From a virus, in IMG/VR virus record IMGVR_UViG_3300024327_000015, positions 1 to 42,924 of that record: DNA of 42,924 nt. One strand, written 5' to 3'. A program made the position numbers and the translations under genes. Every line of letters begins with the position of its first letter. Positions within the stretch are counted from its first letter, which is position 1. This document shows, in pieces, positions 9,651 through 42,024 of the stretch. The notes beneath the pieces were generated by a model. It saw nothing but the letters and a program-made list of their open reading frames with translations, was not told the DNA's origin and did no database searches.

Positions 9651-10930
9651 TGAGCATTAAAAATATAATTCAACAGGAAAATGATTTGCAGGAAATGTCT
9701 CCGCGATCATTAGCTAACTATCTTAATAATCCTACTGGTCAATATAATCCTTACCTTGTCGCAGGAGAGTTACAGCGCAAAGAAGCATTTGCTCAAAGAC
9801 AAATGACAGAAGTTCCTCAAGGAACAGTAGTAGACGAGTTAGTAGCTACTGCCGCACCTATGGGTGGAATGCCTATGGGTGGAATGCCTATGGGTGGAAT
9901 GCCTATGCCTAGACCTGAAGAAATGGTAAGTGAAAGTATTACTGAGACTGGGATTTCTAATTTACCTGCACCAAACATAGGACAGAACTACGCAGACGGT
10001 GGTATCGTTGGATATGCTGAAGGCACTTTAGTTGGAGAAGATGACATATTACAATCGGGAGAGTTTAGATATGAAGAAATGGGTCCAGAAAATGAAAATT
10101 ATGAAGCTTATTTAGAAGAAGTAAGAAAAATACCAGAGCCTTCATTTAGTGGTATAAATCAAATGAAAAGAAATGAAATGATACAAAAAGTAAAAGATAA
10201 ATATAAATCTCCTTACAAAGAAAAAATAGACGCAATTGAAGCAGAAAATACAGGCGGATTTTATTTTGACCCTAAAACATCTTCAGGATTTAATCCTTTG
10301 CGCGGGATAGATTTCCGTCAATATACTGACCAACAAAGAGAAGATTTAAAGTATCTTAGAGATCAAGAAGAAAAATATTATACGGGCAAGTCTGATATTC
10401 AAAACAAACTTAAAGAACAAAAAGCAATAAAGGCGGCAGAAGAAGCAGAAGCTAGAGGTTTAGCGGCACTTAAAGCTTCAGAAAATAAAGCAAATTCTAG
10501 GGCAGAGCGCGATGCATGGTTAGCGCTTGCAATGGGTGGTGCTAAAACTATGGCCGGACAATCACCGTTCGCATTAACTAATATTGGTGAAGGTCTAGGT
10601 GCAGGTATTGGGGCACTTTCACAAAGTGATGCAAATGAAAGAGCTAGAGTAGATGCACAACGAACTGCTTATGAAAAATACATGTATGACATGAATGCTA
10701 ACCAAAGACTTTCAGGCAAAGAGTATGCTGATTTAATAACAGATATACAAGCTACTGTCGAATACCGAAATCTATTAGAGCAAAAAGCAGAACATTATAA
10801 TATAGATATAGACGACCCAGATTATCAGTTACTTATTAAAGCAACTATCCGAGAACTGCTACCTCTTTATGGTAACTCTGGCGCTTCTAATTCAACAATA
10901 GTTAATGGTAAAACTTTTAGCGGTGTCTAG
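9650..10930 (+). CDS. Virion-associated protein with PMGGM repeats (426 aa)
   Basis: Overlaps the previous stop. The first ~60 residues (SPRSLANYLNNPTGQYNPYLVAGELQRKE) are a recurring N-terminal block in environmental podovirus structural proteins. Three PMGGM repeats follow (see 9857-9901), then ADGGIVGYAEG and a DDILQSGEF segment that echoes the GGYAEGG … SQGEFVIPA pairing of the 770-residue protein. Residues ~215-280 are a charged coiled coil (KEQKAIKAAEEAEARG), and ~285-330 are small-residue helices. A minor virion or ejection protein is inferred. Confidence 0.5.
   Translation: MSIKNIIQQENDLQEMSPRSLANYLNNPTGQYNPYLVAGELQRKEAFAQRQMTEVPQGTVVDELVATAAPMGGMPMGGMPMGGMPMPRPEEMVSESITETGISNLPAPNIGQNYADGGIVGYAEGTLVGEDDILQSGEFRYEEMGPENENYEAYLEEVRKIPEPSFSGINQMKRNEMIQKVKDKYKSPYKEKIDAIEAENTGGFYFDPKTSSGFNPLRGIDFRQYTDQQREDLKYLRDQEEKYYTGKSDIQNKLKEQKAIKAAEEAEARGLAALKASENKANSRAERDAWLALAMGGAKTMAGQSPFALTNIGEGLGAGIGALSQSDANERARVDAQRTAYEKYMYDMNANQRLSGKEYADLITDIQATVEYRNLLEQKAEHYNIDIDDPDYQLLIKATIRELLPLYGNSGASNSTIVNGKTFSGV
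9857..9901 (+). repeat. Three tandem 15-bp in-frame repeats (PMGGM)
   Basis: CCTATGGGTGGAATG occurs three times without mismatch at 9857, 9872 and 9887, encoding PMGGM x3 in a flexible linker. Perfect identity suggests recent slippage, so copy number probably varies between relatives. Confidence 0.95.
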
Positions 10931-16952: not shown

Positions 16953-17149
16953 CTAAGCATCCACGTTCTAACCCCCATCAAGTCTCCCTCTACTACTACT
17001 AACGATTTTACTCTTACCTTTGCTCTTTTAGCCCCACTTTCAATCGCATACAAAAGATCCGGCGCTTTTACTGTGGGAATAAAAAAACTATCCCCTGGTT
17101 CCATAGATGAAAACGGCAACACCCATTCAGGATCATTGTGTAGCCGCAT
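16949..17149 (-). CDS. Small conserved-type phage protein (66 aa)
   Basis: Starts inside the 3' end of the primase/helicase gene and converges on the giant gene with shared stop bases. It has a PFSSMEPGDSFFIPTV block, then an Arg/Lys-rich helix (GAKRAKVRVKS) and a short beta end. The 'PGDSFFIPT' type of small protein recurs beside phage replication genes and in my reading may bind nucleic acid. The function is unknown. It is the last gene of the leftward transcript. Confidence 0.6.
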   Translation of the reverse strand: MRLHNDPEWVLPFSSMEPGDSFFIPTVKAPDLLYAIESGAKRAKVRVKSLVVVEGDLMGVRTWMLS

Positions 17150-19961: not shown

Positions 19962-19995
19962 ATTTGCCTTTACTTTTTTAGTCGACAAGACGCCC

Positions 19996-21088: not shown

Positions 21089-21493
21089 TTATTTACTAGT
21101 TGGTTTACGTACAGTTATTTTAAACTCTCTCATCGTACTGATACCAGGAGGGAGTCCCTCCTCCTCTCGTGTACTTAGAAACTCCTTAAAGTTTGTCTGA
21201 CTAATGCGTTGCTGTAATAACTCTAAAGCTTGGTTTTCTAATACATAAGTTTTAAAGTTATCCCAATCCCCACATATGTAGTTTTCTTTAAGGGTTTTAA
21301 TAATTGTACCGCTTTCGGTGCGTAATGTTTCTGCACCAATGTCATCACAAGTTTCTAGCATGGCACTCTCCAATCTACTTATCTGATCTTTAAGTTCGCT
21401 ATCTTCTTGCTGATATTTCTTAGCTAACTTATCTCGCTCTAATCTAATAGCCAAATAAGCTTTCACTAAGGAATTTACTTTTACTCCACTCAT
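21089..21493 (-). CDS. Coiled-coil phage replication-cluster protein (134 aa)
   Basis: The N-terminal ~45 residues form a coiled coil (YLAIRLERDKLAKKYQQEDSEL … SRLESAMLE). The C-terminal half is alpha/beta, with NFKEFLSTREEEGLPPGISTM and an Arg-rich end. This architecture recurs next to DUF2815 SSB genes in phages. The gene position suggests a replication or recombination accessory factor. Its start sits in a 21-bp junction (AGAGAGGAGATAGGACTATG plus A) also found before the upstream gene. Confidence 0.55.
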   Translation of the reverse strand: MSGVKVNSLVKAYLAIRLERDKLAKKYQQEDSELKDQISRLESAMLETCDDIGAETLRTESGTIIKTLKENYICGDWDNFKTYVLENQALELLQQRISQTNFKEFLSTREEEGLPPGISTMREFKITVRKPTSK

Positions 21494-21510
21494 AGTCCTA
21501 TCTCCTCTCT
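21490..21510 (-). repeat. Repeated stop/ribosome-site/start junction, copy 1
   Basis: On the minus strand AGAGAGGAGATAGGACTATG followed by A encodes the C-terminal REEIGL-stop of one gene, the ribosome site GAGGAGA and the ATG of the next. An identical 21-bp copy lies at 22092-22112. Confidence 0.95.
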
Positions 21511-22095
21511 ATTAATTTTTGTATTTAATTTAAGTCCCCAATCATCCAATGTATACTTAATGTCATTTAAAGTCTTTCTACCTAGGTTAGGTGCCCTCAA
21601 TAACTCCCTTTCGCTCTTTTGAATTAAGCTACCAATAGTATAAATCTCTACCCCTTTAAGACAATTCGACGTTCTAACATTCATGTTTAAAAAATAAATG
21701 TCATAAGTTACAAGTTGATTCCCGAACGGAGTTGTATCATTATTACCATCTTGTAACTCTTTTTTTAACCCCCTTATCTCTTTGCGTTTTTGTTTCCAAA
21801 CTCTTTGAGCTCGCTGTCGTCGCTCAACTGCTTGTATGATGCAACGAACTCTTGAGCCAGACAAATTATATTTAGCTCCTAGTTTTTTAAGTGTAATTTC
21901 TCCCCTATCATATTCTTCTTTAATCTGCTCATCTCTTTTTACCCCCAATAATTTTTTCTTTTCGCGCGCATCAAGAGATGCTTTTCTTTTTACCCACTGC
22001 GCATGTTTTATTTTCTCAGTTATTGCTTTTGTTTCTTCATAATATTTGTTCTTTAAGTCTGTTCTTTCCCTTTCTAATTTCTCTATTTTATTCAT
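21490..22095 (-). CDS. Sigma-region-4-like HTH fused to an RNA polymerase alpha-CTD (201 aa)
   Basis: Residues 1-50 are a Lys/Glu coiled coil. Residues ~57-95 contain RGEITLKKLGAKYNLSGSRV followed by RCIIQAVERRQR, the pattern of sigma-70 region 4 and related HTHs. Residues ~131-192 match the E. coli alpha-CTD: VRTSNCLKG … TIGSLIQKSERELLRAPNLG then RKTLNDIK. Using the offset of 124, the alpha DNA-contact residues R265, N268, C269, G296 and K298 correspond to R141, N144, C145, G172 and K174, with S299 to T175 and E302 to D178. The sigma-contact residues D259 and E261 are F135 and N137, so not kept. It probably binds UP-like DNA and redirects host RNA polymerase. It is coupled to both neighbours by ATGA overlaps. 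Confidence 0.8.
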   Translation of the reverse strand: MNKIEKLERERTDLKNKYYEETKAITEKIKHAQWVKRKASLDAREKKKLLGVKRDEQIKEEYDRGEITLKKLGAKYNLSGSRVRCIIQAVERRQRAQRVWKQKRKEIRGLKKELQDGNNDTTPFGNQLVTYDIYFLNMNVRTSNCLKGVEIYTIGSLIQKSERELLRAPNLGRKTLNDIKYTLDDWGLKLNTKINREEIGL

Positions 22096-25484: not shown

Positions 25485-26435
25485 TTATTTTCCTCGAATA
25501 TTTGGGTATGCTAAATTTATTATTTTGGGGTTTATTTCTTTAAATTTGTTGTGAAGCTGCTTTGTTTCTTTTTTACTACAGCCAAGAATGTAAATGTATT
25601 TATGTTTGGTGGGTGATGGACGCTTATCACAACAGTTTTTATGACTTTCCCTTTCGTTCTTTAATCTCGTTGCGATGTCTTCTGGTATGGTGTGCCAATT
25701 TACTTTTCTATAGTTTTTCTTTTTGCCAATCATCTTATACCATTCAGGTTGCCATTCAATTTCTAACTTTTTTGCATAACGTACAATTTGACTTCGGTCA
25801 GCAAAGCCGCTACTTCCAAACCAACCACGTTTTGGGTTGTTGGGGTCTAAATATTGACTTCCAGCACCAAATTTCTGTCCTAAATAAATAAAATTACAAG
25901 CTTGATAAATGGTTCCTAGCTCCTTTGCCTCTGGGTCTGAATAAGCTGAAAATGCTCTAAATTCTGTATTTTTTACCATATATTTAATTGAATGCATTAG
26001 CAACCATGAAGCAAGATTTTTAGGTGACCAAGAAATACAAGAGCCTCGACTTATTAATTTTTCCTTATTTTTATTTTCTTCCCCTAAAATATTTGAAAAG
26101 GCATTTGGTGTTGCCATAATGATAACGCCAGCGAGAGTTTTATTCTTTTTTAATCGCGCTGTGAATCTATGAGTAAGCCAAATGGGAAGTTTACCCAACC
26201 ACTCATGCTGTTTAATAAACTTTTTTATCTCCTCACATTGTTTTTTATCTTCTTTGTCAACATAAGAAAACTCAAAGTCATCAATGCGTAAAGATTTATA
26301 TTCATCTTTAGTAAGGTTTGCTTGCTTCAAATCGTTGATTAAGTTTTGTTGGCGAATTTCGTATTGCCAGCAATGGTCTTTTTTATAATCTTTAAAACGC
26401 TCATAGACTTCTTGCGTCTGAAACTTTTTTGCCAT
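25485..26435 (-). CDS. Mom-like GNAT-fold DNA modification protein candidate (316 aa)
   Basis: The central part matches the phage Mu Mom type as I recall it: LAGVIIMATPN (101-111), ISRGSCISWSPKNLASWLLM (128-147), then SAYSDPEAKELGTIYQACNF (163-182) and IYLG, where the SDP … G-T-I-Y-Q-A block holds the Tyr (Y177) expected in the active site. A late IYILGCSKKE strand also fits. Mom converts adenine to a carbamoylmethyl derivative to defeat restriction enzymes; whether this protein does so is inference. An extra ~80-residue Lys-rich N-terminus precedes the core. It stands next to a 2OG-Fe(II) oxygenase gene. Confidence 0.6.
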   Translation of the reverse strand: MAKKFQTQEVYERFKDYKKDHCWQYEIRQQNLINDLKQANLTKDEYKSLRIDDFEFSYVDKEDKKQCEEIKKFIKQHEWLGKLPIWLTHRFTARLKKNKTLAGVIIMATPNAFSNILGEENKNKEKLISRGSCISWSPKNLASWLLMHSIKYMVKNTEFRAFSAYSDPEAKELGTIYQACNFIYLGQKFGAGSQYLDPNNPKRGWFGSSGFADRSQIVRYAKKLEIEWQPEWYKMIGKKKNYRKVNWHTIPEDIATRLKNERESHKNCCDKRPSPTKHKYIYILGCSKKETKQLHNKFKEINPKIINLAYPNIRGK

Positions 26436-26683: not shown

Positions 26684-27226
26684 TTATCCTTTTTCCCACC
26701 AACGCTCGCGCTTCATCTCCGCAAGTAGCTGATTATAAGTTAATTTAGTTCTATCCTCTTCAAAATCTACGCTTAATAAATACCTAGTCTCTTCAAAATT
26801 ATACACCGTGTGTGTAACTTGTGCGTTAAATAAGTAATACCTTTGGGGCTTGTACTTTAACTCAATAAACTCGCCTTTTACATTACCAAGTGCTACATTT
26901 GCCCCGAGTTTTAAATTTGGGTTAAACATACAATGGCTTTTGTCCCAGTTATTTAACAACATGTTTACCCCGACTCCTCTATCAGTATCGATGTGCCAAT
27001 CATAATATGTGTTAGCCTCCAACTTAATAATCCCGGCTTTAAATGGGTGTGCTCTGTATAAGTATTTCCACCAAGGATCAACTACCCAATCATCTTGTAC
27101 TTCTATAGCTTTAAAATTATAATAGTCAAACCACGACTCCTTACGTGCAGTAATTGCTCGAAGGTACATCATCTCCGAAGCTATCGACTCGTCAGGTATC
27201 TTAAAATAGTATTTAGCATTCGCCAT
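26684..27226 (-). CDS. 2-oxoglutarate/Fe(II)-dependent oxygenase-like protein (180 aa)
   Basis: I use ATG 27226, which overlaps the polymerase end; a GTG at 27250 would add eight residues. The double-stranded beta-helix signature is complete: YYDWHIDTDRG (H78, D80), QRYYLFNAQVTHTVYN (H139) and ETRYLLSVDF (R148 for 2-oxoglutarate). Enzymes of this fold hydroxylate proteins, nucleic acids or small molecules using Fe(II), O2 and 2-oxoglutarate. Between DNA polymerase and the Mom-like gene, a nucleotide or DNA-base substrate is a reasonable but untested guess. Confidence 0.7.
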   Translation of the reverse strand: MANAKYYFKIPDESIASEMMYLRAITARKESWFDYYNFKAIEVQDDWVVDPWWKYLYRAHPFKAGIIKLEANTYYDWHIDTDRGVGVNMLLNNWDKSHCMFNPNLKLGANVALGNVKGEFIELKYKPQRYYLFNAQVTHTVYNFEETRYLLSVDFEEDRTKLTYNQLLAEMKRERWWEKG

Positions 27227-29054
27227 AGTTTTTACCAAAATCCCCTTCACACGTTACCGGCAAGCCTTTTGCCCATGACGGTGCTTTATTCATAGTCTGC
27301 ATAATAAAACGTAATGCTTCATATTTTTCTGCCTCCGGCGCAACGCACACCACTGCGTCATGCACAGTAAGCAGTGGTCTATATCTCTTATTAATAGTAA
27401 TCATTTGCACCCCAATAACTATCCTAGCTAAAGCTTGAACTACATTCTCCACCACTACTCCACCCCAAATACTAATCTCGCCTCGTCTTGATATATAAGT
27501 ATACCCATTATTCTTTAGCTCTAAGTTTGGATAGCGTAGATACAATCCGTTAGGTAGTTTTAATCCTTCCGGAGTAACCAATACACAATTCACTTTGCTT
27601 AAATAATAAACAGGTTTATCTTTAGGCCAAGACGCCATAAATTTCAAGGCTCGATCACACTCCTTCCAAAGCCCTTCCACTTCGTGGTTTATTTTTCGGT
27701 ATAAATCTACTAAACTTTTTGTTTCTTTTTCAGCCATATCTACACCCGCATTAATCTTTAATACATCTCGCAGTTTCTTTGCACCAGTACCATAACCTAA
27801 TCCCAAGATACAAGTCTTACCTACGGCCCGTTCAGTCTTATTTACTTCAGACTTCATATAAACCTTAGAGGCAAACACTGAATACACGTCTTCCCCCCTT
27901 TTAAACTGTTCAAGTACATCATGCTGTCCGGCAAACCAGACTAGTATACGAGCTTCGATTTGTGAAGAGTCACAATTTATAATCACGTGATTGTCTGGTG
28001 GGAGAATGGCGTTCTTCAATGCCTTTTGTTTCTTGTCGCGTGACGGTAAGTTCTGGAAGTTTACTTTGTCTGAACCAGCCCAACGTCCTGTATGTGTGCC
28101 ATAATATTTCAAGGGTATAGGGAGTTGATTGCGGTTGCGTTCAGCTATACCAATGAACCGCTCTATGCGAGTTTCTTCAATCGTAGATTTAGTGCCGAGT
28201 CTTACTGTACATAGCTCTTGTACAAAAGCATTCGGGTGTTCACATAAAGCTAAAAACCCTTGGTCTCCTTTTGCTAGGGCGTAAGTTTCTTTCCCTGTTG
28301 TTGGGCTTGTCTTCATTGGTACTAACACATTTAACTGTTCTAACACATCAGCAAACTGTTTATTACTTGCTAATCTTTTACGCACTTCTTCTACTTCACA
28401 TTCAAGTTTATCCGCAAGTGCCTGTAACAAATTAAGCTTTTCACTCTTGACCTCTTTCAATCTATCCACAAGTACGTCTTTATCTAACTGTAACCCGGGT
28501 AATATATACATTCTTAACGTGATGTCGATAAGTCTAAGTTCACTAGCCGGATAGTTAATAGCGAGCTCTTTGAATAAACCATAAGTGAGCTTCACGTCGT
28601 TCTTACAGTACACTCCGTATTGGCGTAGCTCATGGTCGCGAAAGTCTTCTATGCGTTTACCTTTAGCATCCAAGACTTCTGTGCCTTTTTCTCCTAGTTT
28701 GTAACGTTCAGCCAAAGCTTTAAGTGAACCCCCGGCATCCACTCCGTGTATAGATCTCGCCATACACAGGGTGTCCAGGTATTTCATCGGCTCTGCACCA
28801 AACTTCCATTTAAGAATAGCGCCATCAAACAAAGTGTTGTGACACAATAACATTGCATCGGCCCATGCGATGTCAGCTATAGCTTTTGCTACTGCCTCTT
28901 CTCCGGCATGCCATTCAGTTTTTCCGTCATCTATTTTTATTGCTACACCAATGACTTGGAACCGCTCATCATTGATGTACTCTTCAGTTGTCATTCGAGA
29001 TAGACTAAATCCCACATCGTAAAATGTTTCAAAGTCAATCGTTACTAGATTCAA
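27213..29054 (-). CDS. polA: Family A DNA polymerase with 3'-5' exonuclease (613 aa)
   Basis: The N-terminal exonuclease has TIDFET (D7, E9), LLCHNTLFD and QYGVYCKNDV (D153). Polymerase motif A is CDSSQIEARI (D362). Motif B/O-helix is RAVGKTCILGLGYG, with K413, Y421 and Leu417 at the E. coli F762 position. Motif C is LTVHDAVV (catalytic HD). At 613 residues it lacks a 5'-3' exonuclease, as usual for phages. It is the replicative enzyme. The gene starts 4 bp inside the gene before it and overlaps the oxygenase start. Confidence 0.92.
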   Translation of the reverse strand: MNLVTIDFETFYDVGFSLSRMTTEEYINDERFQVIGVAIKIDDGKTEWHAGEEAVAKAIADIAWADAMLLCHNTLFDGAILKWKFGAEPMKYLDTLCMARSIHGVDAGGSLKALAERYKLGEKGTEVLDAKGKRIEDFRDHELRQYGVYCKNDVKLTYGLFKELAINYPASELRLIDITLRMYILPGLQLDKDVLVDRLKEVKSEKLNLLQALADKLECEVEEVRKRLASNKQFADVLEQLNVLVPMKTSPTTGKETYALAKGDQGFLALCEHPNAFVQELCTVRLGTKSTIEETRIERFIGIAERNRNQLPIPLKYYGTHTGRWAGSDKVNFQNLPSRDKKQKALKNAILPPDNHVIINCDSSQIEARILVWFAGQHDVLEQFKRGEDVYSVFASKVYMKSEVNKTERAVGKTCILGLGYGTGAKKLRDVLKINAGVDMAEKETKSLVDLYRKINHEVEGLWKECDRALKFMASWPKDKPVYYLSKVNCVLVTPEGLKLPNGLYLRYPNLELKNNGYTYISRRGEISIWGGVVVENVVQALARIVIGVQMITINKRYRPLLTVHDAVVCVAPEAEKYEALRFIMQTMNKAPSWAKGLPVTCEGDFGKNYGEC

Positions 29055-30563: not shown

Positions 30564-30790
30564 CTTTTAGGCACTCCTGTTTTAGTTACCGTATACCCAC
30601 TATGCTCTAACACAGGTATTATGCTTTGTTTTAATACCCTTACCATTCTCGCTTCCATGCGTATTCTTGAAGCCTCTTTCGGTATTGGGTATAAAACCGT
30701 GTACCCCTCCTCCCTTAACATATCTATTGCTTGTTCTTTAGTTTGCATGCGTGTAAGTTCTTTCTTTGCTTTATTATTTTCTGCATTCAT
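30560..30790 (-). CDS. Unknown small protein (76 aa)
   Basis: A basic N-terminus, then an alpha/beta core EQAIDMLREEGYTVLYPIPK and a helix with RIRMEARMVRVLKQSIIPVL, ending basic. It begins MNAE like the DUF3310 gene downstream; the ATGAATGCAGAA starts are identical. It is in overlap with both neighbours. No family recognised. Confidence 0.55.
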   Translation of the reverse strand: MNAENNKAKKELTRMQTKEQAIDMLREEGYTVLYPIPKEASRIRMEARMVRVLKQSIIPVLEHSGYTVTKTGVPKR

Positions 30791-31101
30791 GTTTTACTCT
30801 CCAAACTCATCACTCGTTTGCCTTTAACGTAATACTCTAACATCTCAATATTCGTCTCGTCAATAATTAGTGAGACTCCTTGTTGCATACTTATCTCCCG
30901 TAAGTGTTTCTGTTGTAAGGCCGTTGCTTTGTTTCCATTGGCTTTACACTCGATCCCGATAAACTTACCTTTGTAACATGCGACGATGTCAGGTACACCA
31001 CTTGCCCCATATCCTCCTGTTGAGGCATAAAAGTAGTACGCACCAAGTTCCTTAAGCTTGGCACATACTTTCTGTTTTACTTTCTTTTCAGGTGTTGCCA
31101 C
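30787..31101 (-). CDS. VRR-NUC nuclease (104 aa)
   Basis: The minimal VRR-NUC fold is complete: TPEKKVKQKVCAKLKELGAY, GASGVPDIVACYKGKFIGIE with D38 and E51-C-K53, and Q63 in ALQQKHL. Stand-alone VRR-NUC proteins of phages are thought to resolve branched DNA. Chain ends: basic N-terminal helix and a short C-terminal helix. It overlaps both neighbours by one codon. Confidence 0.8.
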   Translation of the reverse strand: MATPEKKVKQKVCAKLKELGAYYFYASTGGYGASGVPDIVACYKGKFIGIECKANGNKATALQQKHLREISMQQGVSLIIDETNIEMLEYYVKGKRVMSLESKT

Positions 31102-31448
31102 TATGATTCTAGTGGTGGAAGTTTGTCAGCTGATGGTGACTCATATCCCGCCATGTCGGGTAGGTGTGAGCCATCCAATGTAAGTGGGGGTAGGTCGTCA
31201 ACTGTTGGGTTGTCATATCCCGCAATTTCAGGAAGAACTGTTTCGTCTCCAAGATTTATAAGGTCAATGCCGGTGTCTTTTGATACCAGTGACCTAGCCT
31301 CTGATTCTGTGATAGTTTCAACTATGACTACCGCGGGTGTTGACGCGGGTGCGGGTGTGGGTACATCTTGTTTTGATACATACACAAGCCCTCCAATTGC
31401 TACGATAACTGCTAATGCTATTGCGTTTTTCTTTGTTACTTGGTTCAT
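31101..31448 (-). CDS. Membrane-anchored protein with 18-residue repeats (115 aa)
   Basis: Residues 8-24 (NAIALAVIVAIGGLVYV) are a transmembrane or signal-anchor helix, then a Pro/Ala linker (PTPAPASTPA). LPEIAGYDNPTVDDLPPL (72-89) and LPDMAGYESPSADKLPPL (96-113) are repeats with 11/18 identities. The tail should lie in the periplasm. The coding sequence contains a diverged copy of the 20-bp element (31275-31294). A spanin-like or envelope function is a guess. Confidence 0.6.
   Translation of the reverse strand: MNQVTKKNAIALAVIVAIGGLVYVSKQDVPTPAPASTPAVVIVETITESEARSLVSKDTGIDLINLGDETVLPEIAGYDNPTVDDLPPLTLDGSHLPDMAGYESPSADKLPPLES
31275..31294 (-). repeat. Diverged copy of the 20-bp R element, inside a coding region
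   Basis: GTCTTTTGATACCAGTGACC (+) matches GTCCTTTGATACCAGTCACT at 17/20, and with the flanking CGGT it matches the copy at 37891 at 21/23. It lies in codons 52-58 of the membrane-protein gene, in the same orientation as the other copies. Confidence 0.6.
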
Positions 31449-31490
31449 TCGCTCTCTCCATTTAATTAAAATAAAATACTGCTCTCTCTG

Positions 31491-31748
31491 TTACACATCA
31501 CAATTTCCGTTCGGACATCCATGAGATAGAATCTCGTCTGCAATGTCGTCTGTCATTTGTTGATGTTCGTGTTGCTTTATTTCGGTTTCAAGATGTTCTA
31601 CAAACTTCTCATCTTTCATTATTACTGATAGCTCTTCGATGATTCGATTAGCCTCTTCTCGGTCTTCACTGCCTATGCTATGTTTATCAAGTAAGGCAAC
31701 GAAGTCCATGAGTAGTCTACGAACTTTGATAAAAATATGGTGTGCCAT
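31491..31748 (-). CDS. Unknown acidic helical protein (85 aa)
   Basis: A basic start (HIFIKVRRLLM), then acidic amphipathic helices (EDREEANRIIEELSVIMKDE, EHLETEIKQHEHQQMTDDI) and a GCPNGNCDV end whose two cysteines could bind metal. Forty-two bases separate it from the next gene downstream. The function is unknown. Confidence 0.55.
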   Translation of the reverse strand: MAHHIFIKVRRLLMDFVALLDKHSIGSEDREEANRIIEELSVIMKDEKFVEHLETEIKQHEHQQMTDDIADEILSHGCPNGNCDV

Positions 31749-35984: not shown

Positions 35985-36006
35985 ATATGTAAAGCTACAC
36001 AAAATC

Positions 36007-36027
36007 TGTGGATTAACTTGTGGATAA
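36007..36027 (-). promoter_or_regulatory. Two DnaA boxes
   Basis: TTATCCACA (36027-36019, exact consensus) and TAATCCACA (36015-36007, one mismatch) lie 12 bp apart on the minus strand, about 40 bp from the A/T-only run. This suggests host DnaA assists origin opening. Confidence 0.7.
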
Positions 36028-36113
36028 CTATTGGTGCGAATTCCTTTAAACCCTTACTACTACTACTATAAATATTAATATTATATATATATAGTGCTGT
36101 ATATTTTGTGTGC

Positions 36114-36127
36114 TGTTCCAATGTTCC
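36114..36127 (-). repeat. GGAACA iterons, cluster 3 (two copies, inverted)
   Basis: TGTTCC at 36114-36119 and 36122-36127, 8 bp apart, just right of the AT-rich run. Confidence 0.85.
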
Positions 36128-36234
36128 ACACTGTTTTAAGTACGATATGCTCACAGGCTTTTTTATTGCACCGCGAAATCAGGTCTCTTGACTTTCGGAA
36201 TCCTGAAAAATCCTATGTATACTTGTTTTGGGTT

Positions 36235-36256
36235 GGAACATTGGAACATTGGAACA
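36235..36256 (+). repeat. TTGGAACA iterons, cluster 4 (three tandem 8-bp copies)
   Basis: GGAACA at 36235, 36243 and 36251 within TTGGAACA units of 8-bp period. Confidence 0.9.
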
Positions 36257-36300
36257 AATTGATAAGTAAAACTTATCGTAAACCCAATGTCGATGGCGAT

Positions 36301-36320
36301 GTCCTTTGATACCAGTCACT
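36301..36320 (-). repeat. 20-bp R element, copy 1
   Basis: GTCCTTTGATACCAGTCACT (+ strand). It forms a 24-bp-period tandem pair with the copy at 36325, between the gp88-gene terminator and the origin. Confidence 0.95.
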
Positions 36321-36324
36321 CATT

Positions 36325-36344
36325 GTCCTTTGATACCAGTCACT
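36325..36344 (-). repeat. 20-bp R element, copy 2
   Basis: Identical to copy 1, 24 bp apart. Only this locus has two copies. Confidence 0.95.
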
Positions 36345-36352
36345 AGGTAAAT

Positions 36353-36375
36353 AAAAAGGGCAGATTTCTCTGCCC
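36353..36375 (-). terminator. Rho-independent terminator after the gp88 gene
   Basis: Minus strand GGGCAGA-GAAA-TCTGCCC (7-bp stem, GAAA loop) then five T. It ends the gp88 transcript before the R elements and origin. Confidence 0.85.
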
Positions 36376-36397
36376 CCCACAAGGTACTCTGTTGGGT

Positions 36398-37126
36398 TTA
36401 CGTCTTAACAACAAACCCGGATCCATCTTTTTTTGCGTGTCCCTTCGCATATAATGAAACCACAACATCCTCGGGATCTAGATGCCTGATATCTGTATCA
36501 TCCCCGCTTACAACTTTGCGACCATGAAACGTTAACGGGATATTTTCAACCCTATCGAATACAACCGCAACCCGTTTACCGTCTTTGAATGCTCGGTCGG
36601 TAAACTTCTCAAAACCTTTGGCGCCTGAATAACTAAAAGTTAAATCGTAGTTGGTCGGGAAGCTTTGAACGCCGTTGATGCTTTTTTCTCTATTGGGTAT
36701 TTTAGTATAATCATAAAATTGAACAGCATCAAAGCGCTCCATAATGTTACGATAATAAACGCCTTCAGAATAAAACCCGACATTTTCCCAACGTATATCA
36801 CTCGTCCCATTCAAGCGCACTAAAGGGGTTAAATTGTTTTGTTCAGCCTTTTTAATAAATGCTTTAATCTCTTTTACTAATTGCCTAAAATATTCTGCCT
36901 GATTCGTTAGATAAAGTTTAGTTCGGGTTAGTCTTGCATCGAACGCCATAACCATACGGCCCGCGGATTTTAAACATGCAATATGACATTGTGCGTTGTC
37001 TGCATTGGCGCACAAGTTAACCCCGCTATCCTTATAAGGGCTTAAATATTGTATGGCCGTCATAAAGCCTTTTTTGTTTCCTTTTATTGTCTTTGCATCC
37101 GCGTTAATACTTAGTAATTTTGTCAT
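36398..37126 (-). CDS. gp88-family protein (242 aa)
   Basis: LSINADAKTIKGNKKGFMTA and IQYLSPYKDSGVNLCANADN, then AQCHIACLKSAGR with C39, C47 and C51, followed by ARLTRTKLYL, match the phage 'Gene product 88' family. PLVRLNGTSDIRWENVGF and FPTNYDLTFSYSGAKGF are further conserved-looking blocks, and DGKRVAVVFDRVENIPLTFH leads to a polar end. The cysteine cluster may bind metal or an Fe-S centre. The biochemical function of the family is unknown to me. It has its own promoter, terminator and AGAGGGG ribosome site. Confidence 0.75.
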   Translation of the reverse strand: MTKLLSINADAKTIKGNKKGFMTAIQYLSPYKDSGVNLCANADNAQCHIACLKSAGRMVMAFDARLTRTKLYLTNQAEYFRQLVKEIKAFIKKAEQNNLTPLVRLNGTSDIRWENVGFYSEGVYYRNIMERFDAVQFYDYTKIPNREKSINGVQSFPTNYDLTFSYSGAKGFEKFTDRAFKDGKRVAVVFDRVENIPLTFHGRKVVSGDDTDIRHLDPEDVVVSLYAKGHAKKDGSGFVVKT

Positions 37127-37154
37127 TTTTGTACCCCTCTAATTGTGTTTTATA

Positions 37155-37160
37155 ATTGTA
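37155..37160 (-). promoter_or_regulatory. -10 box of the gp88-gene promoter
   Basis: Minus strand TAAAGTTATGT then TACAAT: an extended -10 (TGn before the hexamer) in the box shared by four promoters of this arm. An R element (37200-37219) lies 39 bp upstream. Confidence 0.55.
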
Positions 37161-37199
37161 ACATAACTTTACTTATTTAAAAATAATCTCGATCTCGAT

Positions 37200-37219
37200 G
37201 CCCTTTGATACCAGTCACT
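37200..37219 (-). repeat. 20-bp R element, copy 3
   Basis: GCCCTTTGATACCAGTCACT, one mismatch. The similarity to copy 4 continues to the A-tract of the adjoining terminator (AGATAATAAAA). Confidence 0.95.
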
Positions 37220-37226
37220 AGATAAT

Positions 37227-37250
37227 AAAAAAAACCCGGGTTGCCCCGGG
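37227..37250 (-). terminator. Rho-independent terminator
   Basis: Minus strand CCCGGG-GCAA-CCCGGG followed by eight T, directly after the 74-residue gene. Confidence 0.85.
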
Positions 37251-37260
37251 CCCCTCCCGA

Positions 37261-37485
37261 TTAGTCTAATAAAGTCATGTATGCTTTTGGGTGATACTCG
37301 CGAAACCAAGTCAAGCCCTCTTGCATCATGTCATAAAGTTCCATGGCTTCGGCCCCCATGATCGCGTCATACATCGCGACGGCCTGAGGTTCAAGTTCTA
37401 CACTCTCTCCGGAAAATCTATTCTTAACTGTCTCAGGTTTAGATCCAACTTGTAAACCCGCAAAGCTTTTTGGTATTGTGTTCAT
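37261..37485 (-). CDS. Unknown small protein (74 aa)
   Basis: NTIPKSFAGLQVGSKPETVK, NRFSGESVELEPQAVAMYDA and MELYDMMQEGLTWFREYHPK. The NRFSGESVELEPQAVA block recurs in environmental phages beside gp88-type genes. Likely helical. The ATG overlaps the end of the gene before it, with GAGGAGG upstream. Confidence 0.6.
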   Translation of the reverse strand: MNTIPKSFAGLQVGSKPETVKNRFSGESVELEPQAVAMYDAIMGAEAMELYDMMQEGLTWFREYHPKAYMTLLD

Positions 37486-37613
37486 GACTCTACCTCCTCT
37501 TGTATTTCAGTTATAAATTCATCTATGTTTTCTGCGGCCCATGTGGGTACATCTAATTCAGATTTCTTTCCATTCTCATCTTCTACTACTACATGCCACG
37601 ATACAATTTTCAT
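37482..37613 (-). CDS. Small protein (43 aa)
   Basis: ATG 37613 overlaps the preceding stop (TAATG). KIVSWHVVVEDENGKKSELD, then VPTWAAENIDEFITEIQEEV. A beta hairpin plus acidic helix. Its last codons supply the GAGGAGG ribosome site of the next gene. Confidence 0.6.
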   Translation of the reverse strand: MKIVSWHVVVEDENGKKSELDVPTWAAENIDEFITEIQEEVES

Positions 37614-37813
37614 TACTCGTCCTCCTCTAATAGTTCGTTAACTTTCATACAGTCCTTAACATCGTCTTGTGACATATACTTGACCAGACATAAAACGGCC
37701 AGTCTCGCATCAAGCAATCCGCCATCTATTAGTTCTAAAAGCTTATCTCTATAATCGTCCATTTGTAGTTCTTCAGCGTCTTTAATGTTAATTTCCCATT
37801 CATCTATATCCAT
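37613..37813 (-). CDS. Small acidic helical protein (66 aa)
   Basis: Of two ATGs six bases apart, the second (37813) fits AAGGAG spacing. DIDEWEINIKDAEELQMDDY, RDKLLELIDGGLLDARLAVL and CLVKYMSQDDVKDCMKVNEL. First gene of a three-gene operon under the promoter at 37844. Function unknown. Confidence 0.6.
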   Translation of the reverse strand: MDIDEWEINIKDAEELQMDDYRDKLLELIDGGLLDARLAVLCLVKYMSQDDVKDCMKVNELLEEDE

Positions 37814-37843
37814 TTTCATTCTCCTTGTAGTTAGTGGATCATT

Positions 37844-37849
37844 ATTATA
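37844..37849 (-). promoter_or_regulatory. -10 box of a three-gene operon promoter
   Basis: Minus strand ATGTAAAGTAATGT then TATAAT, an extended -10 with perfect hexamer. The R element at 37891-37910 lies 41 bp upstream. The -35 is weak. Confidence 0.65.
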
Positions 37850-37890
37850 ACATTACTTTACATATTACTAAAACGTGGTTCGATCTCGGT

Positions 37891-37910
37891 GTCCTTTGAT
37901 ACCAGTCACT
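37891..37910 (-). repeat. 20-bp R element, copy 4
   Basis: Exact GTCCTTTGATACCAGTCACT, between a terminator (37918-37944) and the promoter at 37844. Confidence 0.95.
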
Positions 37911-37917
37911 AGATAAT

Positions 37918-37944
37918 AAAAAAAAGCCAGGGTTTCCCCTGGCT
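37918..37944 (-). terminator. Rho-independent terminator
   Basis: Minus strand AGCCAGGG-GAAA-CCCTGGCT (8-bp stem, GAAA loop) then a run of about eight T, after the 84-residue gene. Confidence 0.88.
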
Positions 37945-37952
37945 CCCCTCGG

Positions 37953-38207
37953 CTAGTCCTGATCCTGATCCTCACGATCCTGATCATAAATAATACTTCT
38001 GATCTGTTCCCAACGATGCCACCCTTGCATCATTTTATATGAAAGGTCTTTTGCAGACTCTTCATAATGTTTTGTGAGAACGTCGCTACTTGTACCTTCA
38101 AGATCCTTCAAAATACCGACCACGGTCTCCTTACGATGCCCGAAGACGTCATGTAGATCATCAGATACTTGATCAAGCAGTTTAATTTCTTTTTTAGTTA
38201 GTTTCAT
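37953..38207 (-). CDS. Unknown helical protein (84 aa)
   Basis: ATG 38207 (AAGGAAA upstream) is preferred to a longer frame from 38234. KLTKKEIKLLDQVSDDLHDV, FGHRKETVVGILKDLEGTSS and YKMMQGWHRWEQIRSIIYDQ: three helices and an acidic tail (DREDQDQD). Single-gene operon with its own promoter and terminator. Confidence 0.6.
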   Translation of the reverse strand: MKLTKKEIKLLDQVSDDLHDVFGHRKETVVGILKDLEGTSSDVLTKHYEESAKDLSYKMMQGWHRWEQIRSIIYDQDREDQDQD

Positions 38208-38235
38208 AGTTTTTTCCTTGTGTTGTTGAATCATT

Positions 38236-38241
38236 ATTATA
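38236..38241 (-). promoter_or_regulatory. -10 box of the 84-residue gene promoter
   Basis: Minus strand AAGTAAAGTTATGT then TATAAT. Extended -10, perfect hexamer. R element at 38285-38304, 43 bp upstream. Confidence 0.65.
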
Positions 38242-38256
38242 ACATAACTTTACTTA

Positions 38257-38322
38257 TTACTCTACTTTTATACCGGATCTCGATGTCCTTTGATACCAGT
38301 CACTACCCAAAAAAATCTTCAT
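38257..38322 (-). CDS. Micro-ORF (21 aa) spanning an R element
   Basis: ATG 38322 follows the same hairpin plus 10-nt spacer that precedes the starts at 38861 and 39148. It would encode MKIFLGSDWYQRTSRSGIKV then E. SDWYQRT is the translation of the R element. It may be a decayed gene start rather than a gene. Confidence 0.25.
   Translation of the reverse strand: MKIFLGSDWYQRTSRSGIKVE
38285..38304 (-). repeat. 20-bp R element, copy 5
   Basis: Exact GTCCTTTGATACCAGTCACT, preceded by GATCTCGAT as at copy 3. Confidence 0.95.
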
Positions 38323-38347
38323 AATTTTTGATGGGGGCTTTCACCCC
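38320..38347 (-). repeat. 28-bp hairpin leader repeat, copy A
   Basis: Identical over 28 bp to 38859-38886. It contains GGGGTGAAAGCCCC, which folds with a GAAA loop, then ATCAAAAATT and ATG. Here it overlaps the end of the 68-residue gene. It has no immediate T-run, so it is a poor terminator. Confidence 0.9.
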
Positions 38348-38547
38348 TCCTTGATATGTTTTAAGTCATCATAACCAGAACAATGATCATAAAATTCTTT
38401 CATCAATTTTTTCTGATCGTGAGATAATTCCCACCAATACTCATAGTCATCATCTTTCATCATATCTTCCCATTCATAAAAAGCCGATCCTTCACTAATT
38501 TTTTCTTTTGGTTCATCAGTCATTTCTTCGTATGTTTCATGTTTCAT
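38341..38547 (-). CDS. Acidic Trp/Tyr-rich small protein (68 aa)
   Basis: KHETYEEMTDEPKEKISEGS, AFYEWEDMMKDDDYEYWWEL and KLMKEFYDHCSGYDDLKHIK. Very acidic. The ATG overlaps the stop of the previous gene (TAATG) with AAGGAG-like sequence supplied by that gene's end. Function unknown. Confidence 0.6.
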   Translation of the reverse strand: MKHETYEEMTDEPKEKISEGSAFYEWEDMMKDDDYEYWWELSHDQKKLMKEFYDHCSGYDDLKHIKEG

Positions 38548-38861
38548 TATTCGCCCCTCCTTACAGAAGCAAGGTCTCGAACGAAACTATCGCCCTCCAT
38601 AAAACAATCGTCCATTCTATATACCTGCCCTCGATTCTTTAATGCGTCGACCAACAGTCTTGCGTCGCAGTCTTCTTCCAAATAATAGTTATCTTGATCG
38701 TGAAAAGAATAGGTACTAATCTCATCAGCGAACCCCAATGCACTGGCTAGGTCTTTAGATACTTCAACCCAACCATGCCCTGCGTCTGTATGGTATTTAA
38801 AATGTGGTACATTTGTGAATGTTAAATACCCGTTGTGAATGTATCTTGATTCATTGTTCAT
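38547..38861 (-). CDS. Unknown small protein (104 aa)
   Basis: NNESRYIHNGYLTFTNVPHF, KYHTDAGHGWVEVSKDLASA, LGFADEISTYSFHDQDNYYL and EEDCDARLLVDALKNRGQVY. The block HTDAGHGWVEV … YLEEDCDA resembles a short protein found in many plasmids and phages. Ten bases separate a GC hairpin from its ATG, and the only good ribosome site (AAGGG) lies beyond that hairpin. Function unknown. Confidence 0.6.
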   Translation of the reverse strand: MNNESRYIHNGYLTFTNVPHFKYHTDAGHGWVEVSKDLASALGFADEISTYSFHDQDNYYLEEDCDARLLVDALKNRGQVYRMDDCFMEGDSFVRDLASVRRGE

Positions 38862-38886
38862 AATTTTTGATGGGGGCTTTCACCCC
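38859..38886 (-). repeat. 28-bp hairpin leader repeat, copy B
   Basis: Partner of 38320-38347. Here the hairpin is GGGGGTGAAAGCCCCC, followed by ATCAAAAATT and the ATG of the 104-residue gene. Confidence 0.9.
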
Positions 38887-38896
38887 CAACCCTTGG

Positions 38897-39148
38897 TTAG
38901 TCGTAAATAATAGGAAGGTTATAACGATCGATCGAATCTTGAAGATCATCGAGCGCTGTAGTTAACCCTTTCTTTCCTGCAGGGTATCTTTTTCCAGTAA
39001 GGCCTGATACATAATTCCTGCATACGGTAGAAGTGTATCCACTGTTGATTTTCATACCGATCAATAAAGCTTTGATGCCCTGCTTAAAGACCGCCATTCT
39101 ATATGCTTCTATCTGGTCTGGTCTATCTAGTACTGTTGCTTTTTCCAT
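38897..39148 (-). CDS. Unknown small protein (83 aa)
   Basis: ATVLDRPDQIEAYRMAVFKQ, GIKALLIGMKINSGYTSTVC, RNYVSGLTGKRYPAGKKGL and a C-terminal helix. The MAVFKQGIKALLIGMKINSG … GKRYPAGKKGL order is seen in environmental phages. Its start, too, lies behind a hairpin (39159-39174). Confidence 0.6.
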   Translation of the reverse strand: MEKATVLDRPDQIEAYRMAVFKQGIKALLIGMKINSGYTSTVCRNYVSGLTGKRYPAGKKGLTTALDDLQDSIDRYNLPIIYD

Positions 39149-39158
39149 AATTATTGAA

Positions 39159-39174
39159 GGGGGGTTTCCCCCCC
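39159..39174 (-). promoter_or_regulatory. Hairpin between ribosome site and start of the 83-residue gene
   Basis: Minus strand AAGGGTT, then GGGGGGGAAACCCCCC, then TTCAATAATT and ATG. Folding the hairpin brings AAGGG to an effective 12 nt from ATG. Confidence 0.5.
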
Positions 39175-39183
39175 AACCCTTGG

Positions 39184-39462
39184 TTAGTTATATGCTGAAT
39201 GAAAGGATTCTACTCCGCCGTGCTCCAATGCTCCTTCATTGAAACCTTGGTCATCGAAGTACCGCCCACTTAATCCATACTCTTCGTCATTGGCTAAGTC
39301 TTTAACTGTAACAATTCCCCACCCGATACACCAATTAGCTTTCCTATCGTCGCGAAGGATAAGAAAGGTTTGGCCCTTCCATGTCACTTCTTGTCCCGCT
39401 AGGTCTGTGCCACCTTCCTCCTCTTTTCTCCAACTTACTTGCTTACTCATTTTGTTTCTCAT
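39184..39462 (-). CDS. Unknown small protein (92 aa)
   Basis: ATG 39462 has AAGGAG at 7 nt; ATG 39450 is an alternative. SKQVSWRKEEEGGTDLAGQE, VTWKGQTFLILRDDRKANWC and IGWGIVTVKDLANDEEYGLS. A beta-rich domain then an acidic Gly/His tail. First gene of the arm's rightmost operon, transcribed from the promoter at 39505. Confidence 0.6.
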   Translation of the reverse strand: MRNKMSKQVSWRKEEEGGTDLAGQEVTWKGQTFLILRDDRKANWCIGWGIVTVKDLANDEEYGLSGRYFDDQGFNEGALEHGGVESFHSAYN

Positions 39463-39504
39463 TTTGTTACTCCTTGTGTAGGCAGAAAGGACTGCCATGT
39501 CCCT

Positions 39505-39510
39505 ATTATA
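39505..39510 (-). promoter_or_regulatory. -10 box of the rightmost leftward promoter
   Basis: Minus strand TTGCTT, 18-bp spacer containing ATGTAAAGTAATGT, then TATAAT. Best of the four related promoters: -35 with three matches and an extended, perfect -10. No R element lies upstream of this one. Confidence 0.65.
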
Positions 39511-39893
39511 ACATTACTTTACATATACAAGCAACCCCACGCCCCCCCTATGCACCACTTTATAAAATTTTTTTTCTATTACTATATACATTCTAATATA
39601 CTCAAATAACCAGAAGTTTTTCTAAAAGTTACCAGATAGGCCCCCTTACTTTACAAATAGCCAATCAAAAAAATATTTCGCAAAAAATTCTCAAAAACCG
39701 GAATGATTCTCACTGCCGCTTGATCTAGCTGAAGGACGTATACTACGAGTATGAACATTTTATATACACTCTTTCGCCTGCTTAACGCCTGCTTATATTT
39801 AGTGCTACTTTATGGTTTCTGTTTGTTATTATTAATTTAATCAGATATACTCTTGTGCATAGCTGCAAATAATCAAGGTGTAACGGCGAACAC
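39511..39893. other. Divergent intergenic region before terS
   Basis: About 380 bp separate leftward early genes from rightward packaging genes. It contains a small inverted repeat ATACT-ACG-AGTAT (39740-39752), a direct repeat CGCCTGCTTA at 39775 and 39786, and the + promoter below. No gene or tRNA is visible. A pac or cos site is plausible next to terS but is not shown by sequence. Confidence 0.5.
39823..39851 (+). promoter_or_regulatory. Sigma-70-type promoter for terS and the late arm
   Basis: TTGTTA (39823-39828), 17-bp spacer, TATACT (39846-39851): 4/6 and 5/6 matches. Start site near 39858, giving a ~36-nt leader before ATG 39894. It may feed the late transcript through terS, terL and portal. 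Confidence 0.6.
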
Positions 39894-40505
39894 ATGAGTA
39901 AACACAAACCTCCAGTACTCACTCCTTCAACCGAGGAAGAGTTAAAAGAAGATCTATTAGTTATTCCTGAAATAGAGAAAGGGGTTGTTATACCTAAGAG
40001 TAAGAAAGAAGCTATTCCTGAGATGAGCGCTGAGCAAGAAGTTTCTATCCGCGCCAACACAATAAAGACGGTCTCTGATTTAGCTGGAGAAAACATAGAG
40101 CCCTCAAAAGAGCATCAAGATCAAGCCGTAGAACTTGCGCGTGATATGATGACAAACAAGAAACTTAAACCTGAGTTCGCAAACTACCCTAATGAAACAA
40201 TGGCGTTTTTAGCAGGACTTGTAGCACAAACTAATTGTATGATTGTCAAAGAGCTATCAGATTTAAAACTTTATACGGTTAATAAGTTTGTAGAATTATC
40301 AGCAACGGCAGAAAAAGATGCGGACAGAATAAAAGCATTAAGAAATTTAGGAGAAGTAGACGGCGTCGATGCATTTAAAAGAAAAACAGAGATTACGCAC
40401 ATTACTAAATCAGGAGATGAGTTAGAGAAAGAACTTTTAGAAACTATAGAACAGCTAAAAGGTAAAGTCATTGAAGGCGAACATGAGGTAGTTGACGATG
40501 ATTAG
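39894..40505 (+). CDS. terS: Terminase small subunit (203 aa)
   Basis: Position directly before TerL and the predicted fold support this call. The N-terminal ~45 residues are a charged linker (PSTEEELKEDLLVIPEIEKG). The middle is helical, with ANTIKTVSDLAGENIEPSKE and QAVELARDMMTNKKLK. A helix with LKLYTVNKFVELSATAEKDA and an acidic C-terminus (EGEHEVVDDD) close it. TerS binds the packaging site and loads TerL. The ribosome site is weak. It ends in an 8-bp overlap with terL. Confidence 0.65.
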   Translation: MSKHKPPVLTPSTEEELKEDLLVIPEIEKGVVIPKSKKEAIPEMSAEQEVSIRANTIKTVSDLAGENIEPSKEHQDQAVELARDMMTNKKLKPEFANYPNETMAFLAGLVAQTNCMIVKELSDLKLYTVNKFVELSATAEKDADRIKALRNLGEVDGVDAFKRKTEITHITKSGDELEKELLETIEQLKGKVIEGEHEVVDDD

Positions 40506-42024
40506 TGAAAACGATCTAAATCTACTTCAAGCAAAAATCCCTCATATGAGTGAGCGGGAGCAACAGAAGCACCTTACGCTTTTAAAAGAATACAAAAAGA
40601 ACTTAACTAAAACACAGGGGAAGGCAAACTTCTTAGACTTTATTAAACATGTCTACCCCGATTATAAAGTAGGAGAACATCATGCAAAATTGGCTAAATT
40701 ATTTGAAGAAATCACAGACGGAAAAAGAAAGCGAGTTATCGTTAATATCGCGCCTCGTCACGGAAAATCGGAACTTATTTCCTATCTGGCTCCGGCTTGG
40801 TTTTTGGGTAAGCATCCAGCAAAGAAGGTTATCATGGCATCTCATACAGCAGATCTTGCTGTTAACTTCGGCCGTCGGGTCAGGAATCTCGTGGGCTCAG
40901 ACCCTTATAAAGACATATTCCCCGATATCAGTCTACAAGCGGATAGTAAAAGCGCCAGTAGGTGGGGTACAAATCATAACGGTGAGTATTTTGCTATTGG
41001 TGTTGGTGGTGCTTTGGCTGGTCGTGGAGCAGACCTTTTTATAATTGATGATCCACACTCAGAGCAAGACGCAAAGTTAGGAAAGGGAGATGTTTTTCTC
41101 CCAGCTTGGGAATGGTTTCAGTCAGGACCACTACAAAGGCTTATGCCTGGCGGTGCAATTATTGTAGTAATGACTCGATGGTCTAAATTAGACCTAACAG
41201 GACAGATAATTAACCAGATGGTTAAGAATGACGACGTTGATGACTGGGAAATAGTAGAGTTTCCAGCTATTTTAGAGGATAAAAAAGGGAATGAAGTCCC
41301 ATTATGGCCTGAGTTCTGGCCGCTAGAAGAATTACAGAGTAGAAGAGCTGCACTAGACATACGATACTGGAATGCGCAGTACTTACAGAACCCAACATCG
41401 GAAGAAGGCGCACTAATTAAGCGAGAATGGTGGAATATGTGGGAAGAAGAAGATCCACCTAGTTGTGAGTTTATAATAATGACGCTTGATGCTGCTCAAG
41501 AAGCCAATAATAGAGCTGATTATAATGCAATAACAACATGGGGTGTCTTTTTTAACGAAGAAACTAATAATTACGCTATAATATTATTGAATGCAGTAAA
41601 AGAACGACTAGAGTTTCCAGAACTCAAGGCTCTGTGTCTAGATGAGTATCGGGAGTGGGAACCAGACGCTTTTATTGTGGAGAAAAAGTCAAATGGTGCA
41701 GCGCTTTACCAAGAATTTAGAAGAATGGGAATTCCAGTGGGTGAATTTACACCTGGAAAGGGACAGGATAAGATTAGCCGTGTTAATGCTGTGTCTGATT
41801 TGTTTAGTGGGGGTGTGGTTTGGGCACCAGACAGACGTTGGGCGCATGAGGTTATTGAAGAATGCAACGATTTCCCTAGTGGTGCCAACGATGACTTAGT
41901 TGATGCTACAACGCTGGCTCTAGCAAGGTTTCGGCAGGGTGGATTTATTCGCTTGCCAAATGACGAAGAAGATGATATACAGATGTTTAGAGGTCGAAAA
42001 AATAAAAGGTTATATGCACTATAA
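40498..42024 (+). CDS. terL: Terminase large subunit (508 aa)
   Basis: The ATG at 40498 is used; a TTG at 40492 would add two residues. Walker A NIAPRHGKSE (83-92), Walker B LFIIDDPH (180-187), motif III IIVVMTRW, a Gly-rich SGPLQRLMPGGA loop, and the C-terminal RNase H-like nuclease from IIMTLDAAQE with FIVEKKSNGAALYQEF and NDDLVDATTLALARF. All motor and nuclease motifs are present. It packages DNA into the prohead, driven by ATP, and cuts it. Confidence 0.92.
   Translation: MISENDLNLLQAKIPHMSEREQQKHLTLLKEYKKNLTKTQGKANFLDFIKHVYPDYKVGEHHAKLAKLFEEITDGKRKRVIVNIAPRHGKSELISYLAPAWFLGKHPAKKVIMASHTADLAVNFGRRVRNLVGSDPYKDIFPDISLQADSKSASRWGTNHNGEYFAIGVGGALAGRGADLFIIDDPHSEQDAKLGKGDVFLPAWEWFQSGPLQRLMPGGAIIVVMTRWSKLDLTGQIINQMVKNDDVDDWEIVEFPAILEDKKGNEVPLWPEFWPLEELQSRRAALDIRYWNAQYLQNPTSEEGALIKREWWNMWEEEDPPSCEFIIMTLDAAQEANNRADYNAITTWGVFFNEETNNYAIILLNAVKERLEFPELKALCLDEYREWEPDAFIVEKKSNGAALYQEFRRMGIPVGEFTPGKGQDKISRVNAVSDLFSGGVVWAPDRRWAHEVIEECNDFPSGANDDLVDATTLALARFRQGGFIRLPNDEEDDIQMFRGRKNKRLYAL

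Follow-up and report, generated by a model that had tools for sequence, protein, structure and literature searches.

Repeated elements between and inside genes

Rickettsial palindromic elements (RPE) insert into genes in frame. Proteins carrying RPE have been described (PMC2635572), and the locus reported here, from an uncultured tailed phage, resembles them in that a segment related to a repeated element, called R, lies within a protein. It differs from them in that R is no obvious palindrome and has a single intragenic place here. Promoter early stem-loops (PeSLs) of T4-type phages are known, partly from PMC4503421 and partly as general background, as composite terminator-promoter units between small genes, and genes are shuffled at these units. 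Here, the intergenic units R2, R3, and R4 combine a T-run with a TATAAT-type repeat (a putative promoter), and R units appear to hold recombination junctions, one in a clear chimera (locus L028) and one in a second, supported chimera (L025/L052). R units differ from PeSLs by the asymmetric element R added after the terminator, by the lack of TATAAT at part of the sites (R1a/R1b), by a surrounding gene content that is not T4-like where seen, and by the R-related segment inside a gene. By analogy, they may be regarded as PeSL-type cassettes with a putative early promoter.

Cluster A mycobacteriophages have stoperators, described as short asymmetric sites that predominantly share a single orientation with respect to transcription and differ from phage to phage (PMC6550527). 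In layout, R is likewise short, asymmetric and in one orientation, but it follows T-runs, and the subset of ORFs scanned yielded no recognisable integrase or immunity repressor. In the archaeal virus HF2, a halovirus, intergenic repeats are reported to be linked to promoters (PMC8707807). R too is intergenic and associated with putative promoters of the TATAAT type; unlike R, the repeats of HF2 belong to an archaeal virus and themselves hold the promoter motifs. A search of the open-licence literature with limited terms gave no recognisable description of R.

The phage and its 115-residue gene

The window, i.e., the whole stretch of DNA analysed (42,924 bases), is a single virus record. It encodes a primase/helicase (17133–19988), a family-A DNA polymerase (27213–29054), a gp88-like protein (36398–37126) and a terminase large subunit (40492–42024). 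Other features include a match to a Mom-like DNA modification protein (25485–26435; phrog_1384, 3.2e-16) and a 15-bp tandem repeat (9857–9907) within a 426-aa ORF.

The gene of interest is a 115-aa ORF on the minus strand (31101–31448). Read from the sequence, its product has a hydrophobic N-terminal stretch, followed by a variable Pro/Ala linker, the R-like segment (approximately codons 53–63) and a conserved C-terminal half, which contains an internal repeat and matches DUF5978 below the curated cut-off. A short homologue is found at 9311–9526 of L161, Methylophilales phage MEP402 (Zobellviridae according to its record), and possibly hints at the host group. The antisense ORF at 31123–31524 was rejected as a source of constraint on the gene: across the gene, its frame is free of stops only in the window and has 1–4 stops in the other long gene versions examined.

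The intergenic R elements

R is a short asymmetric element with the core ACWGGYATCAAAG. The window has five intergenic copies with the consensus AGTGACTGGTATCAAAGGAC, all on the minus strand, and a sixth, weaker copy in the 115-aa gene. R1a (36325–36344) and R1b (36301–36320) form a tandem pair, of which R1a follows a terminator-like hairpin (36355–36378), and R1b, located downstream of gp88, has the tail CATCGCCATCGACATTGGG and is the copy nearest in sequence to the intragenic segment. R2 (37200–37219) lies between a hairpin with a T-run (37235–37250, read by eye and not picked up by the scan) and a TATAAT-type repeat (37154–37172), R3 (37891–37910) between a terminator-like site (37919–37950) and another such repeat (37843–37861), and R4 (38285–38304) after a T-run and before a third (38235–38253). 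The TATAAT-type repeat has four matches on the minus strand against 0.06 expected; the one at 39504–39522 has no R upstream. Three of the five R copies in the window (R2, R3, and R4) have a TATAAT box, which is absent from R1a/R1b. These repeats are putative promoters. The TATAAT-type repeats were not among the minus-strand sites in a sigma-70 consensus scan of 36000–39900, which gave 8 sites, fewer than in shuffles (12.2); terminator-like sites number 5, with 2.5 expected. After the tandem R pair, TTCCAATGTTCCAATGTTCCAA-like repeated units (36230–36260) continue to about 35660; no gene was recognised in this long stretch, which is possibly an origin or regulatory region.

From 18 loci, window included, 19 distinct core variants were gathered together with their flanking sequence, using the pattern AC[TA]GG[TC]ATCAAAG, so that the constancy of the core among them is partly by construction. 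The last core base, left open as G or A, is G in 57/57 intergenic hits. A T-run occurs at most 45 nt upstream in 56 of these 57 hits (32/33 distinct contexts), the only exception sitting at a contig end, and a TA[TC]AAT box occurs downstream in 24/57 (15/33 distinct contexts) and is thus not a strict feature of R. These counts are from hits in 22 loci with near-identical contigs included, and correspond to 33 intergenic and 7 intragenic distinct contexts. A scan with a 17-mer gave 53 stretches, many in contigs without other R features, a number that by rough estimate fits chance; in a pattern search of genome contigs 69 stretches matched and none was confirmed.

The binding site of IHF is WATCARNNNNTTR. 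None of the 19 distinct R variants matches it, and R was rejected as an IHF site. It was also rejected as a promoter of a phage RNA polymerase, no gene for a single-subunit polymerase being recognised among the subset of ORFs scanned. Our guess would be that a regulator binds R ahead of early promoters. One candidate for an R-binding protein is the product of the ORF at 21490–22095, which has a weak match to a late transcriptional activator (E 0.0013).

R elements may also take part in recombination. The R near position 1541 of L028 has a left flank identical to that of R4 (40/40) and a right flank identical to that of R2 of L013 (40/40) and close to that of R2 of the window (38/40), while the remaining comparisons give 18–22/40. 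Judged from these flanks, a crossover inside R is clear in L028, and since its R is a chimera of two others, R can mark junctions of gene shuffling. A second chimeric R, common to L025 (3892) and L052 (819), is supported by flanks matching at 34/40 on the left and 36–37/40 on the right. The rearrangement of small-gene cassettes by crossovers inside R thus appears clear for one R and supported for a second.

The match inside the gene

The original prediction had placed a further R copy, with a 17/20 match, inside codons 52–58 of the 115-residue ORF, in the same orientation as the other copies and far from them. The match is present on the minus strand, where 31294–31275 reads GGTCACTGGTATCAAAAGAC and differs from the consensus of the intergenic copies at three of 20 positions. 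It corresponds to gene nt 155–174, i.e., codons 52–58; its orientation is that of the other R copies, and the nearest of these (36301–36320) is approximately 5 kb away. The match of 21/23 claimed for the site with its flank is confirmed when the 23-mer is taken in its R3 form, for which 21 is the best score outside R in the window and was reached by 0/2000 letter permutations.

A random-shuffle test had also been proposed, and the 20-mer stands well apart in it. The next-best site outside R in the window has 13/20, and 17/20 was reached in 0/300 dinucleotide shuffles of the window, in 0/150 synonymous-codon shuffles of 52 ORFs, and by 7/2000 letter permutations of the 20-mer scanned on the real window. 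For the 29-nt match (23/29), none of 300 dinucleotide shuffles, 2000 permutations or 150 synonymous shuffles came up to the observed value. When the gene was recoded at random with synonymous codons, 17/20 at the site arose in 2/5000 cases and 23/29 in 4/5000. The 13-nt core alone (12/13) is unremarkable (24/300 shuffles, 129/2000 permutations, 2/150 synonymous shuffles).

The resemblance of the intragenic copy to R is closer than chance easily explains. According to the simplest alternative, the likeness to R arose by coincidence in the codons that specify SLVSKDTGID and was passed on to homologues. This accords with the lack of significance of the 13-nt core, and also with the way the match was found, because it was picked among many possible ones before any test. 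Furthermore, the homologues share one common history and are not independent, and some gene versions score 30 against R1b, close to the null maximum of 32 given below. Coincidence is, however, unlikely in our view, since the 20-, 29- and 34-nt matches lie above all or nearly all nulls, and since a homologue found via protein similarity and not via R, L170, matches R better than the window does.

Extended similarity and its distribution

The similarity to R1b extends beyond the predicted 20 bp, which form the 5′ part of a 34-nt alignment on the minus strand (31260–31293) with 28/34 identical positions. Its score of 44 corresponds to a fitted p of 1.4e-6 when shuffled versions of the gene serve as the null, the best of 3000 such versions scoring 30. 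L170 is a distant homologue of the gene (48% identity) found through alignment-based protein search; its segment matches R at 18/20 on the 20-mer and 23/29 on the 29-mer, and R1b at 33/39, with a score of 54 and a fitted p of 5e-8 (best of 3000 shuffles: 41). These fitted p values may be too small, given the single L170 shuffle at 41 and a score of 35 against the R4 region for a part of the L170 contig that lies beyond the gene. As a further null, the 39-nt R1b query had a best score of 32 in 78 other phage loci (L075–L080, L090–L160, and L161; 730,835 b, both strands, 566 chunks), a set that leaves out R-bearing relatives, gene relatives and all R-pattern loci (L006–L058). In the window with the gene and R copies masked, its best score was 28. 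Rough E values, with an assumed K of 0.2, are 1.4e-4 for the window and 1.1e-7 for L170.

Other gene versions score 46 (L179), 40 (L181) and 36 (L182) against R1b, and L071, L052, and L066 score 30 each, within the null tail. Nine homologues without the segment, including that of phage MEP402, score 14. L179, L181, L182, and the short homologues were added through alignment-based searches, in which representatives were used and partial copies or contigs already seen were left out. R1b is the best partner among all R collected for six of seven gene versions (L170, L179, L181, window, L065, and L071). For the seventh, L061, R3 (44) beats R1b (36); this could reflect later conversion or chance, and the R3-like tail of L061 hints at gene conversion from an intergenic R.

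Of 11 records searched for the 13-mer core, five contained it. It belongs to intergenic R sites in G001 and G003, whereas G004, G005, and G009 each have a single occurrence, with GGCATC as in the gene itself. The core was absent from G007, G008, G010, and G011, whose gene is without the segment, and also from G002 and G006 despite a long gene with the segment; G002 starts within an R, and the record of G006 includes 1.6 kb upstream. A shorter core was absent from the 29,505 b of MEP402 searched. Among the contigs examined, none carried an L170-type gene together with its own R region.

Among close relatives, 25 loci with the gene were found and 23 of them were aligned with the window, L078 and L080 being left out; counts among close versions exclude the partial L073 and L074 and the segment-less L075, L076, L077, and L079. 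The nine distinct full-length close versions with the segment match R at 14–17 positions of the 20-mer and 19–24 of the 29-mer. A parsimony count (14 changes toward R, 6 away from it and 1 neutral) was set aside, since its root was ambiguous, it did not include L170, and the window had been picked because of its match. Inspection by eye gave no sign that the gene copy co-varies with the R of the respective phage.

The direction of transfer might also have been from gene to element, with R1b, and perhaps the whole R family, derived from a fragment of the gene. The end of the alignment takes in the IDLG codons, which overlap sequence also encoded by homologues without the segment, so this end may be due to chance or to the direction from gene to R. 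Moreover, R1b translated in the gene's frame gives E*LVSKDIAIDIG. We consider this direction very improbable, because the same core follows T-runs in L019, L085, L086, L087, and L089, where R is a poor match to the gene (scores 16–30 for the R of L085, L086, L087, and L089, and 22–42 for L019).

Constraint on the gene copy

The original prediction had offered two readings of the match, an intragenic regulatory site or a segment copied into the gene. The former implied low synonymous change in codons 52–58, which was not observed: the nine distinct close versions have 2 synonymous and 4 non-synonymous changes over these 7 codons, i.e., 0.29 and 0.57 per codon, and 36 and 42 over the 103 codons outside 51–62, i.e., 0.35 and 0.41. 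A T-run at most 45 nt upstream and a TATAAT downstream were each found in 0/11 intragenic hits (7 distinct contexts). No terminator-like site was found in 30700–31700, and promoter-like hits near the gene copy are at chance level (2 vs. 2.2 expected). The proposed regulatory site thus finds no backing in local synonymous constraint among close versions, in a T-run or in a downstream TATAAT. Relatives that keep the protein and lack the motif had been named as evidence against the prediction; here the picture is mixed, with 14–17/20 retained in close versions and 18/20 in L170.

Deeper comparisons give a different pattern. In codons 53–66, 6/8 conserved columns use a single codon, compared with 7/46 elsewhere (Fisher 0.0014); for any 8-column window as uniform in codons the value is 0.039, and for the originally predicted codons alone 0.24. 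Twelve pairs were formed between the window group (window, L065, L069, and L071) and L170/L179/L181. In these, codons 53–62 are codon-identical at 3/5 to 9/9 of the residues shared, compared with 35–54% in the rest, and Fisher values are <0.05 in 6/12 pairs. Plain protein evolution does not explain the uniform codons 53–66. Something keeps this stretch, but, to judge from the codons, not evidently its R identity: GGC, ATT, and CTT stay fixed in most gene versions yet differ from GCC, ATC, and ATT of R1b, and AAR and GAY vary in the gene, even though all intergenic R hits share the last core G.

Alternatively, the gene copy might still act as R, as a point of recombination or of regulator binding, and be held by selection at the DNA level; the stretch would serve as both protein and site, and intergenic R copies might have converted it. 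Such a role would account for the uniform codons and the six deep pairs, and the exact degenerate core AC[TA]GG[TC]ATCAAAG is present in 7 of 13 distinct gene versions. It is nevertheless improbable, more so than chance resemblance. The final core G of intergenic R is A in five of the 13, including the window, whose copy therefore fails the core pattern, this A lying at a synonymous site; L071 has neither form, its core being broken elsewhere than at the last base. The value of 0.24, the close versions without constraint, the conserved codons that are not those of R1b, and the missing T-run, TATAAT and terminator also speak against it. At present, the gene copy looks like ordinary coding sequence and not like a working control site.

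Origin and significance of the gene copy

The reading that a segment was copied into the gene is favoured by the matches to R1b (28/34 for the window, 33/39 for L170), which lie above the maximum of other phages, and by the nine homologues without the segment; this falls short of proof. We somewhat favour capture of an R-type element into the gene's linker long ago. In this scheme, R would normally sit just after a terminator T-run and sometimes ahead of a TATAAT-type promoter. Each crossover within R would bring the left flank of one copy next to the right flank of a different one, so that small-gene cassettes are shuffled. The variable linker of the small protein would most likely have taken up, in frame, all or part of an R1b-type element before lineages carrying the long gene diverged. 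Where R1b has an in-frame TGA, the gene has TCA. After capture, the segment would have evolved as protein-coding sequence. Based on sequence comparison, the segment and R1b probably share common descent; the direction was presumably from R to the gene, and any function of R was presumably lost in the gene copy.

If true, capture would illustrate on a small scale how a repeat of non-coding phage DNA became protein-coding sequence, in a case where homologues with and without the segment exist and the likely donor element is still in the genome. The chimeric R documents gene shuffling at repeated intergenic linkers in the DNA of uncultured phages.
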